From assembly GCA_009780575.1 (NCBI GenBank), contig WQZU01000001.1, positions 1-64,000 on the forward strand: 64,000 bases of DNA, in the 5' to 3' direction. A program made the translations under genes and the position numbers. The notes under the pieces are model-generated. The model made no database searches. It was not told the origin of the DNA and saw nothing but the letters and a program-made list of their open reading frames with translations. Positions 41,199 through 60,953 of this stretch are shown in pieces (within the stretch, counting starts at the first letter, position 1; each line of letters begins with the position of its first letter). Source of the DNA: Candidatus Methanomicula labiotermitis. GTDB lineage: Archaea; Thermoplasmatota; Thermoplasmata; Methanomassiliicoccales; Methanomethylophilaceae.

Positions 41199-41687
41199 AT
41201 GGACACTTTGATGTTCTCCGTCATTGCATCGGCCGCGGTCGTCTTGCTGCTGATCACGTTCCTGCTGCTTTCAAGCAAAGAAAAAAGCGCACGCAAAGTC
41301 GCAAAGAAGATCCGCAGAAGACCGAAAAAGGTTACCGGCGGAGGCATATGCGGCATATGTTTCGGGAGCATATCCAAAGCGGAGATGACCTCTAAGTGCG
41401 CATGCGGTCAGACCTTTCATGAGGATTGCGCGGAGCAGACCGGTTGTCCTTACTGCGGAACTCCGAGCATCGATCTTGTCAAGGAGATGCCCGATTGTGT
41501 AAGATGTCCGTCATGCGGTTCCGATGTCACGGGCAATGTGTGCACATGCGGTGCCGTCGTGAACAGAGGAGGTTCGTTCGTTTGCAGCTGCGGTAATCCC
41601 TTGAACATGAACGATTCCGTGTGCGGAAGATGCGGTACCGCATACAAACTGTGCTCCGGCCGCAATGATACGGAGGAAGGACGTTGA
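41199..41687 (+). CDS. Membrane-anchored RING-like / zinc-ribbon protein
   Basis: 162 residues. One N-terminal membrane helix (about 5-24) and a basic stretch precede a cross-brace zinc domain: C51-x2-C54, C67-x-C69, H74-x2-C77, C83-x2-C86, the C4HC3 spacing of RING-variant fingers. Several CxC/CxxC zinc ribbons follow (100-145). Its stop overlaps the Pop5 start. RING-like domains in archaea can pair with E2 proteins; one such enzyme set lies 17 kb away. E3 function is inference; it could also be a plain zinc-ribbon scaffold. Confidence 0.65.
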   Translation: MDTLMFSVIASAAVVLLLITFLLLSSKEKSARKVAKKIRRRPKKVTGGGICGICFGSISKAEMTSKCACGQTFHEDCAEQTGCPYCGTPSIDLVKEMPDCVRCPSCGSDVTGNVCTCGAVVNRGGSFVCSCGNPLNMNDSVCGRCGTAYKLCSGRNDTEEGR

Positions 41688-41995
41688 CCGTCAAGGAAAA
41701 AAGAGGAAGGAGAAGGTACATCGCCTTTACCGTCGGTCCGGAGATCACAAAGGATATTGCCATTTCATCGCTCAGGATGCTTTGCGGTGATCCTCCTTAC
41801 GTGGTCCAATGCGCGGAAGGATGGGCGATACTGAGATGTTCTCCCGAAAATATTGAGGAGACGAAAGCGCTGATGAGACGCGTCGACGCCTCTTCCGCGC
41901 CTCTTAAGACATCCGGAACATTGGCGACGCTTCGGGACGCGTATCCCGAGTTAAAACGCCTGCGCCCCGCGAAGAAGATGTTAAGACATATATAG
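41684..41995 (+). CDS. rnp2: RNase P protein component Pop5 (Rnp2)
   Basis: 103 residues, TTG start overlapping the previous stop. GRRRYIAFTV opening, the middle YVVQCAEGWAILRCSPEN and its place directly before the proteasome alpha gene match archaeal Pop5. It stabilises RNase P RNA for tRNA 5' maturation. Short proteins like this carry limited signal, but context is strong. Confidence 0.82.
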   Translation: MTVKEKRGRRRYIAFTVGPEITKDIAISSLRMLCGDPPYVVQCAEGWAILRCSPENIEETKALMRRVDASSAPLKTSGTLATLRDAYPELKRLRPAKKMLRHI

Positions 41996-42040: not shown

Positions 42041-42751
42041 ATGCAACCAGGACAGATGGCATACGACAGAGGGATAACAGTATTTTCTCCCGACGGAAGG
42101 TTGTTTCAGGTGGAGTATGCGCGCGAGGCCGTGAAAAAGGGCACAACGACCATCGGACTCAAGTTCAAAGGCGGAGTTGCGCTCATCGTCGACAAACGCG
42201 TACCGAGCAGATTGGTGGAGCCCAGGTCGATTGAGAAGATATACAGTATCGACTCTCACATCGGATGCGCCACATCGGGCCTCGTGGCCGATGCAAGGAT
42301 ACTCGTCGATCAGGCGAGGAAGGATGCTCAGATCCACAAGATAACGTACGGCGAGAACATAGGCGTTGAAGGTCTTGTAAAGAAGATCTGCGATTTCAAA
42401 CAGAATTACACACAGTACGGCGGCGTCAGACCTTTCGGAACGGCCTTGCTGATGGCAGGCGTTGATGAATTGGGCTCACATCTCTTTGAGACCGACCCCT
42501 CGGGTGCGCTCGTCGCATACAGAGCGGGCTGCATAGGCGCCGGACGCCCGACGGTGATGGAGATGTTCGAGAAAGAGTTCAAGGACGGTATGTCATACAA
42601 CGATGCCTTGCTGCTTGGAATAAAAGCACTGAAGGCCGCCGTGGATGATGAACTGACCGCACAGACCGTGGAGATAGGTGTCGTTGATTCTGACAGAAGG
42701 TTCAAAAGGCTCACCGAGAACGAGCTTGAAGGCCTCATCAAAAAGACATGA
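42041..42751 (+). CDS. psmA: Proteasome alpha subunit
   Basis: 236 residues opening with MQPGQMAYDRGITVFSPDGR and LFQVEYAREAV, the gate and the alpha signature. Seven such subunits form the outer rings of the 20S proteasome and dock the regulatory ATPases. A gaggagaat site precedes the ATG. It sits in the archaeal exosome superoperon. Confidence 0.96.
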   Translation: MQPGQMAYDRGITVFSPDGRLFQVEYAREAVKKGTTTIGLKFKGGVALIVDKRVPSRLVEPRSIEKIYSIDSHIGCATSGLVADARILVDQARKDAQIHKITYGENIGVEGLVKKICDFKQNYTQYGGVRPFGTALLMAGVDELGSHLFETDPSGALVAYRAGCIGAGRPTVMEMFEKEFKDGMSYNDALLLGIKALKAAVDDELTAQTVEIGVVDSDRRFKRLTENELEGLIKKT

Positions 42752-57069: not shown

Positions 57070-58122
57070 ATGATCAGGTTCGGTCCGGCGGGAATCCCAT
57101 TGTCATGTAAAGGTCGCACATTGAAAGACGGTATTGAGGATGTGCACAATCTCGGCCTCACGGCGATCGAGATACCCATGGTAAGGGCCGGCACCATCGA
57201 ACGCTATCCTGAAGAAGAGGAGATCGGGCTGTGCATCGCGGAACTTAAGGACGGTCTTGTTGTTGAATTCATCAGAGATGACATCCCTATATGCGACCCG
57301 AGTGAACCGATCGGAGAGGATGACGTTCTTGTCAGAATGGCGTCCGGCATCGCCGACTCGTACGGTTCGCTGATACCGATAGGCAAAATGGCCGAAAGAC
57401 TTGATGTCAAGATCTCATTGCATACACCGTATTTCATGGATCTCGGAAGCAATAACGAACTTACCGAGAGGAGTTTGAATAACATCAGACACTGCGGAGT
57501 AATATCCAATGCGCTGGGCGGCGATATCGTGACCACCAATCTCGGTTTATACAAAGACGTCAATGACACTGCCGAGACCGATGCGAACATCATTGAGAAT
57601 GTTGCCGCCATAATGGAATGGTGGACCGAGAACAACATAAAAACAAGACTCGGCGTTGAGATCACAGGACGCCAGGAAGCCTTCGGTTCGCTGGAGCAGG
57701 TACTTTCATTGTGCGATGAGATAGATGGTGTCGTACCGGTCATCAACTTCCCTCACCATCATTCCAGGACACGCGGTTCACTCATGACCTCTGCGGACTT
57801 CAAAGACATTCTTGAGAAGGCGGAACCGTATTGCAGCGGAAGCATCCATACATTGTTCTCGGGCGTTGAATACCATGACGGCAACGAACGCAGGTTCACG
57901 CCTATTAAGAAAGGAGATCTGAAATTCGAACCGCTCGCTGAGACTCTCATTGATCTTAAGCGTGACGCCACCGTGATATCCGGTTCACCGCTTCTCGAAC
58001 ATGATGCGATGTACATGAAGGTCATACACGAGCGCGTTCTGACGAAGAGAGTGGCCAAGGTCATAAGGGCCAAGAAGAAAGATGAGGCCTCTGCGGCCGA
58101 GGCTGACGCAGAGGAAGAGTGA
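57070..58122 (+). CDS. TIM-barrel protein of the AP endonuclease 2 / endonuclease IV superfamily
   Basis: 350 residues. Opens IRFGPAGIPLSCKGRTLKDG, has HTPYFMDL and a GVEITGRQ strand, with metal-ligand His and Glu at the expected strand ends, as in archaeal endonuclease IV-like proteins. A Glu/Ala-rich tail ends it. It is followed without gap by a SIS-domain isomerase. Role in DNA repair or sugar metabolism cannot be settled. Confidence 0.75.
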   Translation: MIRFGPAGIPLSCKGRTLKDGIEDVHNLGLTAIEIPMVRAGTIERYPEEEEIGLCIAELKDGLVVEFIRDDIPICDPSEPIGEDDVLVRMASGIADSYGSLIPIGKMAERLDVKISLHTPYFMDLGSNNELTERSLNNIRHCGVISNALGGDIVTTNLGLYKDVNDTAETDANIIENVAAIMEWWTENNIKTRLGVEITGRQEAFGSLEQVLSLCDEIDGVVPVINFPHHHSRTRGSLMTSADFKDILEKAEPYCSGSIHTLFSGVEYHDGNERRFTPIKKGDLKFEPLAETLIDLKRDATVISGSPLLEHDAMYMKVIHERVLTKRVAKVIRAKKKDEASAAEADAEEE

Positions 58123-58658
58123 TGTCCTCACTCGACTATATCCTCGAATCGGTAAGAAGATCTGTCACGTCCGTTGATCCGGCAGCCGTGGATTCACTTA
58201 TTGACAGCATCGTATCATCAAAAACTTTGTTCATATACGGTTCCGGAAGGTCCGGTCTTTCCGGACAGTTCTTCTGCGTGCGTCTTGTCCAGATGGGACT
58301 GGACGTTCACTTCGTCGGTAATATGACCACGCCGATAATAACAAAGGACGATCTTACCATAGTGATCTCGAACACCGGCGAGACCATGTCTGCCGTTCAG
58401 ACTGCCACTATAGCCAGGCGCATCGGGTCCAAGGTTGTTGCCGTCACTGCGAACATGGACAGTAAACTGGCGAATGCGTCTGACATCGTGATACATCTGC
58501 CTACCGTCAAGGACAAGGAAAGATCCGTCAACGCGCCTCTCGGGACCATCTTCGAAGAATCATCGAATCTGTTCTTTGACAGTATAGTGCCTTCTGTGAT
58601 GAACCGTCTTAACGTGACGGAATCCGACATGAGGAAACGTCACGCCATCTGGGTATGA
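58122..58658 (+). CDS. hxlB: SIS-domain isomerase, 6-phospho-3-hexuloisomerase-like
   Basis: 178 residues from the ATG overlapping the previous stop. IYGSGRSGLSGQFF and VISNTGETMSAVQTA are the phosphosugar-binding loops of SIS proteins; length and the ERSVNAPLGTIFE segment fit 6-phospho-3-hexuloisomerase of the reverse ribulose monophosphate path. The synthase (HxlA) is not in the window. Tail-to-tail overlap of 19 bases with the JAMM gene. Confidence 0.85.
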   Translation: MSSLDYILESVRRSVTSVDPAAVDSLIDSIVSSKTLFIYGSGRSGLSGQFFCVRLVQMGLDVHFVGNMTTPIITKDDLTIVISNTGETMSAVQTATIARRIGSKVVAVTANMDSKLANASDIVIHLPTVKDKERSVNAPLGTIFEESSNLFFDSIVPSVMNRLNVTESDMRKRHAIWV

Positions 58659-59155
58659 GATTCCATTACCACCATTGACGCTTCTTCCGGGCCGTTCTCT
58701 GAACCTTTGAACACTTTCAGTTCCTCTTTGATCGGGTCTATTACAACAGCGAAACCCGATCCGCCGAACACGGATGAATGCGTACGGATGTCCGTTTCCG
58801 ACATGAAGCATCCTATCCCTATATGGGAATGATACCATCCGACGATCACATACTCAAAATCCAGATCATCCAGCGCATCGAACAGCGGAGTCATGTCGGA
58901 ATGATCGAATCTTACGCTTACTTCGTCCGCATGGAGTTTTGCGGTCACCGCTTTATCGGCTTCCGCATACACTCCGTTCTCATCCCTGTACATCCGGCCC
59001 GCCAGAAGTCCCATGACCTCCGCATTCTCTGATGCGCCTCTGTCAGCATGGTCAAGCATCTCCGATATTGCGGCCTCGGATACGAAAATATCCGCATTCA
59101 CTATCCTTTTCCGCTCCGGGATCTTTGAATCGATATGCGGGGTTATGCGCGGCAT
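58640..59155 (-). CDS. JAMM/MPN-domain metalloprotease (deubiquitinase-like)
   Basis: 171 residues. The zinc-protease motif is complete: E46 (AEVMGLL), H109-S-H111 then x7-S119-x2-D122 (HSHIGIGCFMSETD). This is the active JAMM form as in Rpn11 and AMSH. It is the last gene of the E1-Ubl-E2-JAMM operon; its ATG overlaps the E2 stop by one base with GGAGG ahead. I infer that it trims the Ubl or removes it from targets. The N-terminus (1-20) is unstructured. Confidence 0.92.
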   Translation of the reverse strand: MPRITPHIDSKIPERKRIVNADIFVSEAAISEMLDHADRGASENAEVMGLLAGRMYRDENGVYAEADKAVTAKLHADEVSVRFDHSDMTPLFDALDDLDFEYVIVGWYHSHIGIGCFMSETDIRTHSSVFGGSGFAVVIDPIKEELKVFKGSENGPEEASMVVMESHTQMA

Positions 59156-59643
59156 CAGTGCCTCCCGAAGCTTACCGACGCGTTTATCTTTGCTTCATTC
59201 TCTATATAGAATCTTGATGCTTCCATGCACACATCGGTGCCGAACGGATTCATTGCATTCGGATTGCCAGTCAGATATTCCACCGCTTTCATGAACGACA
59301 GTAACGTGGATCCGAACTCCCATTTGTCAAGGAGTTTTATGCATACGTAACCTCCATCCTCCGGAGGCATTATGTTCGGATGGAATATCGGTGTTTCCCA
59401 TTTGGCTATCGGCTTTTCATAAGGATACTCTTCGTTTATCACGACTCTGTACCGGTGATCCTTTATCGGTACCATTTTCCCGTCTATCTTTGCATACGCC
59501 GGGATGTTCGTCATGTTCACCGTTATCTCTATCGGAAAGGACACCTCATTCGGATCGAAGACTATGTCCGAGCCTATGTATCCGGAGCATCTCTGCAGCT
59601 CGTTTGTCAGTCTTTTTAAAAGTACCGGGAGAGGAAGGCCCAA
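59155..59643 (-). CDS. E2-like ubiquitin-conjugating enzyme
   Basis: 162 residues. UBC fold with YPYEKPIAKWETPIFHPN: HPN motif at 88-90, catalytic Cys101 (GGYVCIKLL), W108 and the GNPNAMNPFG loop, all as in eukaryotic E2 enzymes. The HPN Asn, needed for isopeptide formation, is kept. TTG start; the GGAGGA that encodes the Gly-Gly of the preceding Ubl acts as Shine-Dalgarno. True E2 proteins are rare in archaea. It should take the Ubl from the adjacent E1. Confidence 0.92.
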   Translation of the reverse strand: MGLPLPVLLKRLTNELQRCSGYIGSDIVFDPNEVSFPIEITVNMTNIPAYAKIDGKMVPIKDHRYRVVINEEYPYEKPIAKWETPIFHPNIMPPEDGGYVCIKLLDKWEFGSTLLSFMKAVEYLTGNPNAMNPFGTDVCMEASRFYIENEAKINASVSFGRH

Positions 59644-59644
59644 T

Positions 59645-59884
59645 TCATCCTCCCTCCGGATCGGGTAACAGTTCCAGAACGTCTTCGTTCATTATGTTCG
59701 CTTCCATCACCGTGTCCTTTGCGCTGAGTAGGGATTTTCCCTTTCTGAGAACGTAGGCCCTCGGATCCTTCTTCCAGAATTCCGCCGCACTTTCTATTAT
59801 GTCATATATCGTCTCATTCGGCGCCAGATCCATTTTCAGAGTGGCGCCGAGCGTTGCATTCCTGACCACTATCCGTATTCCCAT
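59645..59884 (-). CDS. Ubiquitin-like modifier ending in Gly-Gly
   Basis: 79 residues from ATG 59884 (GAGGTG six bases ahead). Beta-grasp pattern: strand IRIVVRN, second strand TLKMDL, helix TIYDIIESAAEFW, strand YVLRKG and a final ILEL-type strand (EDVLELLPD), ending EGG with no extra residues, so it is ready for activation without processing. It sits between E1 and E2 genes. Alternative: a ThiS/MoaD sulfur carrier, but the E2 and JAMM neighbours argue for conjugation. Confidence 0.88.
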   Translation of the reverse strand: MGIRIVVRNATLGATLKMDLAPNETIYDIIESAAEFWKKDPRAYVLRKGKSLLSAKDTVMEANIMNEDVLELLPDPEGG

Positions 59885-59886
59885 TT

Positions 59887-60675
59887 TTACACCTCGTTCA
59901 TGTGATTTTCGCAAGAGTCGTCTTTCTTAACGTTCATGATGAATGTTTCACCCGATATTCCGTCATAGTACGCAATGTTCTCTATACACATATCCTTCCT
60001 TCCTGATATTATCTTCACCGCTTCCCTTGCCTGCATGGCCGCCACTGCTGATGTCGTTGTGATCTCAGCCGCCATCTTCGGCGCGTAGAATGAACTTTTT
60101 CCCGTGCAGTTGAACCTTGTCTCGGAGACGTTGTAATGGCTCCTGTTCATTGCGCATTGCAAACACGGACCGCCTGGAAGTACCACTTGGATCTTTCCGA
60201 GCATTCCGTCCGTTCCTCCGTCAACGTACGGTATACAGTGATAACAGCTGTGAGCATTCACGTGAAGCCTTGCGGAAATATTGTCCATGCAACCGAGCAC
60301 AATGTCAAAATCCCAATCCTCCATTTCCTGTATGCGCATCTGTTTTGCCGTTATCTTCACATCCGGGTCCAATTCCGACGCGCGTTTCGCAAGTATCTCG
60401 GATTTCGTTCCGCTGTTCACATCCGTGTCTCTGAAGAAAACGCATCTGTTCAGATTCGATATCACAACGGTGTCCATGTCCGCGACCGTGATGTCTCTGA
60501 ATCCTGAGAGCACAAGACATTTCACAACCTCGTTCCCCAGAGCTCCGGCGCCGACGACAAGACACCGTCCGCTCTGTATGCGGCCGATATCGATCCATTC
60601 GATCCTCTTCGACCTGTCGAAACGGTCCTTGTCGTATTCCTTGACGGATATCATCTGTTCATAGAACGATTGCAT
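59887..60675 (-). CDS. E1-like activating enzyme (ThiF/MoeB/UBA superfamily)
   Basis: 262 residues. Rossmann GAGALG (42-47), ADMDTVVISNLNR (65-77) and K91 form the adenylation site for the Ubl C-terminus. GPCLQC (169-174) is one zinc knuckle; a second is not clear. C190 (RFNCTGK) is the best candidate for the thioester cysteine. First gene of the four-gene operon, with the Ubl start two bases after its stop. Compared with UbaA/MoeB it lacks a rhodanese domain, as expected when an E2 accepts the modifier. Confidence 0.9.
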   Translation of the reverse strand: MQSFYEQMISVKEYDKDRFDRSKRIEWIDIGRIQSGRCLVVGAGALGNEVVKCLVLSGFRDITVADMDTVVISNLNRCVFFRDTDVNSGTKSEILAKRASELDPDVKITAKQMRIQEMEDWDFDIVLGCMDNISARLHVNAHSCYHCIPYVDGGTDGMLGKIQVVLPGGPCLQCAMNRSHYNVSETRFNCTGKSSFYAPKMAAEITTTSAVAAMQAREAVKIISGRKDMCIENIAYYDGISGETFIMNVKKDDSCENHMNEV

Positions 60676-60743
60676 TGTTAATAAAAGAACGATTACATGT
60701 AGTCTACCGCAGATATATTATTCAGTTACGTATATGCGTCTCC
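60676..60743. promoter_or_regulatory. Divergent promoter region between E1 operon and zinc-finger gene
   Basis: gatatatta (60712-60720) is a TATA box about 28 bases before ATG 60744, so the rightward gene is probably leaderless. No equally clear box is seen for the leftward E1 operon; an A/T-rich stretch at 60676-60690 is too near its ATG. Confidence 0.5.
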
Positions 60744-60953
60744 ATGGTAAGCCTTCCCGAGCACGGCCATTGTGTGAATTGCGATGATCCGATATCGTCC
60801 AAAGAATATTTCTGCTCCGACGACTGCACGAATGAGTACGCTGCCGACGTCAAGGAAGCGAAAAGATTGGACAGACGTTTCTATGCTCTTATGGCGGTCT
60901 CGATCGCAGCTATTGCGGCGATCACTTATCTATTCAAATTTTTCATCCTTTAA
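60744..60953 (+). CDS. Tail-anchored treble-clef zinc protein (DUF2116-like)
   Basis: 69 residues. HCVNCDDPISSKEYFCSDDC gives a four-Cys treble-clef finger near the N-terminus and a C-terminal membrane helix (about 46-67) anchors it. It is divergent from the E1-Ubl-E2-JAMM operon and ends overlapping the convergent folP by 24 bases. Family known in archaea without function. Confidence 0.75.
   Translation: MVSLPEHGHCVNCDDPISSKEYFCSDDCTNEYAADVKEAKRLDRRFYALMAVSIAAIAAITYLFKFFIL

Follow-up and report, generated by a model that had tools for sequence, protein, structure and literature searches.

An archaeal E1-Ubl-E2-JAMM operon of Methanomassiliicoccales and its candidate membrane-anchored RING-like E3 at the proteasome locus

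Results

Gene content of the operon

The window, i.e. the whole 64,000-nucleotide stretch analysed here, stems from a 1.37-Mb draft genome. The closest named relatives of this genome are Methanomassiliicoccaceae assemblies, which judging from their isolate names are apparently of termite-gut origin. An initial annotation of the window had proposed a four-gene operon for ubiquitin-like conjugation, and we analysed its folds, catalytic residues, gene order and inheritance computationally. All four open reading frames were found in place on the minus strand, next to two convergent genes:

59887-60675, minus strand: E1, single-domain ThiF-type activating enzyme, 262 aa (Pfam ThiF, 6.2e-46)
59645-59884, minus strand: Ubl modifier, 79 aa, C-terminus exactly ...PDPEGG (family alignment, AlphaFold2, Foldseek, profile)
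59155-59643, minus strand: E2, UBC-fold conjugating enzyme, 162 aa (Pfam UQ_con, 4.9e-11; AlphaFold2 and Foldseek)
58640-59155, minus strand: JAMM metalloprotease, RPN11-like (Pfam JAB, 2.7e-16; RPN11 in PDB, 2.8e-12)
57070-58658, plus strand: convergent TIM-barrel gene and hxlB-type SIS isomerase gene (conserved downstream flank, synteny)

The genes had been described as overlapping. They are indeed tightly packed, but only the E2 and JAMM genes share a nucleotide, whereas gaps of 2 nt and 1 nt separate E1 from Ubl and Ubl from E2, respectively. Because of this spacing, the four genes are likely to be co-transcribed. The E2 gene starts with TTG, preceded by GGAGG, and the N-terminus in the family alignment coincides with this start.

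Activating enzyme and modifier

The ThiF domain covers residues 32-256 of E1, with the nucleotide-binding motif GAGALGNE and the zinc ligands C171/C174 and C255/H258. In the family alignment, the nucleotide-binding residues and both zinc pairs were kept, as was Cys190 (in a CTG motif) in 61 of 62 sequences, and Cys190 is the best candidate for the active cysteine that would form the thioester. Among solved structures, the adenylation half of UBA1 was closest, followed by UBA3 and SAE2, with ThiF and MoeB behind. The phylogenetic tree, which comprised 31 sequences and included UBA1 by partial sequences only, united the operon E1, archaeal E2-linked E1s and UBA1 in one clade (support 100/99). 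MoeB, ThiF and the paralogues from the same genome fell outside this Ub-E1 clade. Within the same tree, the Thermoplasmata E1s formed a branch of their own (support 96/95), separate from the Thermoproteota E1s. The UbaA model of NCBIfam scored 82 bits on E1 against a cut-off of 450. The ThiF match and the position in the Ub-E1 clade agree with the proposed adenylating E1.

The Ubl alone matched Pfam weakly (TUG-UBL1 at 1e-3, ubiquitin at 0.2), and its family profile matched ubiquitin chains of the PDB. AlphaFold modelled it with confidence (pLDDT 89) as a beta-grasp, which aligned with ubiquitin and SUMO at TM-scores of 0.83-0.87 in Foldseek, in line with the annotated 79-residue beta-grasp protein ending exactly in Gly-Gly. 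The PDPEGG motif was near-invariant across loci. About half of the loci end there, and the rest carry 1 to 15 variable extra residues, as in a relative ending in ...PDPEGGFSGPPY. A conserved PDPEGG followed by a variable tail of 0-15 residues is the pattern expected of a processed modifier, and it fits trimming of the tail by JAMM in some species. Maturation of Ubl by JAMM has been described for Caldiarchaeum (PMC5654768). In the tailed relatives, JAMM would be needed to remove the residues beyond GG, whereas the Ubl of the window, with GG already terminal, would be born mature. As JAMM is retained where Ubl needs no maturation, it probably also deconjugates.

Conjugating enzyme and protease

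E2 scored 42.8 bits with UQ_con (cut-off 27). The HPN motif (His88-Pro89-Asn90) and Cys101 were invariant across about 75 loci, with the catalytic cysteine present in 75 of 75. Loop 7 contains W108 but lacks the usual SPA. UBC9 was the closest solved structure, and the AlphaFold model (pLDDT 90) showed the UBC fold, with UBC9/UBE2 as best Foldseek matches (probability 1.00, E = 3.5e-5) at moderate TM-scores of about 0.5-0.64. An E2 with HPN and catalytic Cys101, as originally described, is thus borne out. In-frame stops were reported in some E2 genes (G028, G260); we rejected their reading as pseudogenes, since the catalytic regions are intact.

The JAMM residues Glu46, His109, His111, Ser119 and Asp122 are all in place, as had been noted, and were kept in about 95% of about 75 loci. 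RPN11 was its best PDB match, and the desampylase model of NCBIfam gave 39 bits against a cut-off of 130. The profile matches expected for the four proteins were obtained for ThiF, UQ_con and JAB, and weakly for Ubl alone.

Since the ThiF fold is common to all E1s and to MoeB/ThiF, the operon might in principle supply sulfur, with a Ubl thiocarboxylate used for tRNA or cofactor thiolation and E2 and JAMM as accessories. SAMP and Urm1 can indeed be bifunctional. However, a ThiS-ThiF-ThiG-ThiH-ThiE operon and a MoeB-like gene are encoded elsewhere in the same genome, and the Ubl studied here is therefore not the obvious sulfur carrier. Moreover, E1 groups with the Ub-E1s and the catalytic cysteine of E2 is invariant. 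We regard a sulfur-carrier function as extremely improbable, and the operon as very probably a conjugation system.

Distribution, gene order and inheritance

E2 relatives were found in 52 of 61 related genomes; across the class Thermoplasmata, the count was 120 of 400 genomes. The complete E1-Ubl-E2-JAMM set in an archaeon of a methanogen order, with the expected families, all catalytic residues in place and the gene order conserved, agrees with the initial annotation. Its description as unusual, however, does not hold within the lineage, as the cassette occurs in most of the order and in many other Thermoplasmata. Among 74 public loci, which are a lower bound because the scan of public genome contigs reaches close relatives only, the order Ubl-E2-JAMM was found in 68 and the full order E1-Ubl-E2-JAMM in 56, many of the exceptions being due to contig ends. 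The UBC fold, the beta-grasp and the conserved gene order on which the annotation relied were all found.

Where loci had enough flank, the convergent hxlB gene lay downstream of the operon in 57 of 64 and the TIM-barrel gene in 54 of 60; these two genes mark the position of the operon and are outside the pathway. Ribosomal genes such as L13 also flank the operon downstream (35 of 51 loci). All four genes are under strong purifying selection within the genus, with dN of about 0.08-0.2 against near-saturated dS. The operon is vertically inherited at one fixed chromosomal site beside a ribosomal-protein cluster, and is no mobile defence island.

This setting bears on the relation to bacterial BilABCD and related E1-E2-Ubl-JAB operons, which share the four functional roles within one operon. 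The four functions equal BilA-D, and the E1-E2 models of PADLOC matched E1 weakly, so that a Bil-like role against phages, in which viral or host structures would be modified during infection, has to be considered. PADLOC gave no system match, however, and no match for E2 or Ubl. Bil systems combine a tandem Ubl (BilA) with an E1 of two domains and an E2 whose active site is of the CEHH type (PMC11354881), whereas the operon has a single Ubl, a single ThiF domain and a classic E2 with HPN and Cys. Furthermore, Bil is sporadic, in contrast to the near-universal presence in the order and vertical inheritance found here. A role in defence is accordingly very unlikely, and we retain the reading as a conjugation system.

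Several divergent arrangements were encountered in the survey. A Desulfurococcales genome contains a distant Ubl(GG)-E2-JAMM trio (L105:1189-2883) whose JAMM has a C-terminal transmembrane segment, with E1 on another contig; some E2 was found in 52 of 398 genomes of its phylum. One draft genome (G104) contains the system twice (L172 and L173). In L095:4837-9264 and L101:4909-9974, zinc ribbons extend the Ubl ORF N-terminally, a long coiled coil extends the C-terminus of JAMM, and E1 is relocated downstream. In a Thermoproteota ORF (L180:3726-4547), Ubl-GG reads through into E2 without a stop between them, and JAMM would therefore have to cut after GG. Finally, L174:3411-4127 and L176:3289-4005 fuse a Ubl-like domain to an E2-like domain whose catalytic cysteine is missing or displaced. 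No other operon genes were found near these two fusions, which are possibly non-catalytic derivatives.

A RING-like membrane protein at the proteasome locus

Every core step of conjugation had been attributed to the operon. This applies to E1, Ubl, E2 and JAMM, but an E3 had been omitted. A RING search of the genome gave one match, below threshold and located inside the window, 17 kb from the operon and unlinked to it:

41199-41687, plus strand: candidate E3, membrane-anchored RING-like protein, 162 aa (zf-RING_2, 1.1e-4; profile; joint loss)
41684-41995: Pop5-like ORF between the RING-like gene and psmA
42041-42751, plus strand: 20S proteasome alpha subunit, psmA (PF00227, 5.8e-61)

The protein consists of an N-terminal transmembrane segment (residues 5-24, approximately), a RING-like domain and C-terminal zinc ribbons, and scored 22.9 bits with zf-RING_2, below the gathering cut-off of 27.3. 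Its zinc ligands are C51, C54, C67, C69, H74, C77, C83 and C86, with Ile53 and Pro84 of the E2-contact type. The eight ligands and the CP before the last cysteine were invariant in 17 diverse family members, and Ile, Leu or Val followed the first cysteine in 29 of 30 loci. The family profile matched RING E3s of the PDB, with 9.5e-6 as best value; RNF165, Arkadia and AMFR were among these matches, with values from about 1e-5 to 1e-3. We call the domain "RING-like" out of caution: its ligands are arranged as C4HC3, an order shared with RING-CH and PHD, and it may be RING-CH or PHD-like. The gene lies directly upstream of Pop5-psmA-SBDS-Rrp4-Rrp41 and has an HdrA-type gene on its other side; adjacency to psmA was seen in 25 of the 30 relative loci read.

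The RING and E2 were present or absent together. A single-sequence search of 61 relatives found the RING in 49 of 52 E2-positive genomes and in none of nine E2-negative genomes (Fisher, p = 1e-8), and a profile search found it in 36/36 E2-positive genomes of the family and in 29/29 elsewhere in the order (65/65), against absence from 19 of the 20 E2-negative family genomes listed (Fisher, p = 5e-14); both p-values ignore relatedness, and they rest on some three to five independent events of joint loss. RING matches outside the order, mostly with E-values of 1e-7 to 1e-13, were left out of these counts; most of them belong to other RING or zinc-ribbon families. At least the genera g4, g12 and g2 show such joint losses, and f6 probably underwent two. 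A search of G185, a g4 genome assembled into a single contig, found no operon E1, E2 or RING motif anywhere. The RING gene is gone from its exact site in this genome, where the HdrA-type gene is directly followed by Pop5-psmA and the neighbours are kept.

Conjugation could also proceed independently of an E3, if E2 itself modified the substrates and the RING-like membrane protein had another function. The operon itself contains no RING, the RING-like protein stays under the Pfam cut-off, and the canonical SPA, a contact site of many RING E3s, is missing from loop 7 of E2. To our knowledge, SAMP systems also manage without a RING. Yet, the RING and E2 were present or lost jointly in several lineages while the neighbouring genes were retained, and we consider E3-independent conjugation unlikely. 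The RING-like protein at 41199-41687 is, on balance, fairly likely to be the E3 of the operon's cascade.

We also considered a DUF2116 treble-clef membrane protein that is encoded divergently from the E1 gene (window positions 60675-60953). It was rejected as the main E3 candidate: its gene was near just 13 of 74 loci, and it was kept in most of the g4 loci read, where conjugation is lost.

Reduced systems in gut-associated lineages

At six gut-associated loci (L165, L166, L167, L100, L103 and L104), JAMM is shortened and its metal ligands are gone. In g12 and related gut genomes with a truncated JAMM, E1, E2 and the GG tail are intact where the contig covers them. Reduction has gone further in genus g4 (L185-L191), where neither E1 nor E2 remains and the Ubl lacks GG, although its Ubl-fold ORF is intact. 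Most g4 loci read also contain a dead JAMM remnant of about 130 aa, and both Ubl and remnant occupy the usual position of the operon, flanked by FolP/DUF2116 and hxlB. Pairwise dN among the GG-less Ubls was at least 0.35, still below dS; these reading frames are therefore open, but weakly constrained. It is possible that the GG-less Ubl has a conjugation-free role.

Discussion

Systems of this kind are already known from Caldiarchaeum and Asgard archaea; the present branch differs in the minimal E1, the unlinked membrane RING at the proteasome locus and loop 7 of E2. The study of James et al. 2017 (PMC5654768) describes for Caldiarchaeum subterraneum and related Asgard clusters the same Ubl-GG, E1, E2 with catalytic cysteine, RING component and adjacent Rpn11-type JAMM, as well as pro-peptide processing after GG, which is here seen in some relatives. 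The Caldiarchaeum E1 has additional catalytic-Cys and C-terminal ubiquitin-fold domains, whereas our E1 is one 262-aa ThiF domain. Their small RING gene lies in the operon, whereas ours encodes a membrane-anchored protein and lies at the proteasome locus; JAMM is here co-directional and the last gene, and loop 7 of E2 differs. The E1 stands on its own branch, apart from the Thermoproteota E1s. A separate archaeal branch beside the Caldiarchaeum-type systems is the best reading. Our literature search, which covered the article text of PMC5654768, found no account of an E1-Ubl-E2-JAMM system in Methanomassiliicoccales; the Cluster III that this survey names only in its supplement may include these loci. 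The link to an E3 and the series of progressively dismantled loci are apparently new.

The best PDB relatives were UBA1/UBA3/SAE2, ubiquitin, UBC9, RPN11 and RING E3s, i.e., components of the eukaryotic ubiquitin, SUMO and NEDD8 cascades. In comparison with these cascades, the archaeal system has minimal domains and a single copy of each enzyme, encoded by one operon plus one RING gene. Haloarchaeal SAMP/UbaA/HvJAMM1 shares the GG-ending Ubl, the ThiF-type E1 and the JAMM desampylase, but has neither E2 nor RING, whereas an E2 is present here and the UbaA model stays far below its cut-off.

We think it likely that the locus encodes a eukaryote-like ubiquitin-like cascade of E1, E2 and E3 with deconjugation by JAMM, in which every chemical step is predicted from sequence. 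E1 would adenylate Gly79 of the Ubl at the expense of ATP and then bind it as a thioester on Cys190, from where the Ubl would be passed to Cys101 of E2. The membrane RING-like protein would bind the charged E2 and steer the Ubl to lysines at or near the membrane, and JAMM would take the modifier off again. That conjugates are delivered to the proteasome is a tentative proposal, which we hold to be somewhat doubtful.

The reduced loci would fit a history in which an independent and complete archaeal E1-E2-RING pathway, with its membrane RING genetically tied to the proteasome-exosome locus, is ancestral and was dismantled stepwise in some gut lineages. JAMM would have been lost first, followed by E1, E2, the RING and the GG tail, while the GG-less Ubl and the dead JAMM were kept for a conjugation-free function. 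Taken as a whole, we give this history an even chance.

Discussion of archaeal E1-E2-RING ubiquitin systems has so far centred on Caldiarchaeum and the Asgard lineages. Here, most members of an order of gut and sediment methanogens carry a complete set by vertical inheritance, which implies a greater age or a wider spread of these cascades. Some members of the Methanomassiliicoccales are cultured, and an archaeal ubiquitin-like cascade could therefore be studied in living cells. The lineages without conjugation provide a natural knock-out series. Moreover, with a membrane RING candidate beside the proteasome alpha gene, a link between modification and degradation in archaea becomes directly testable.
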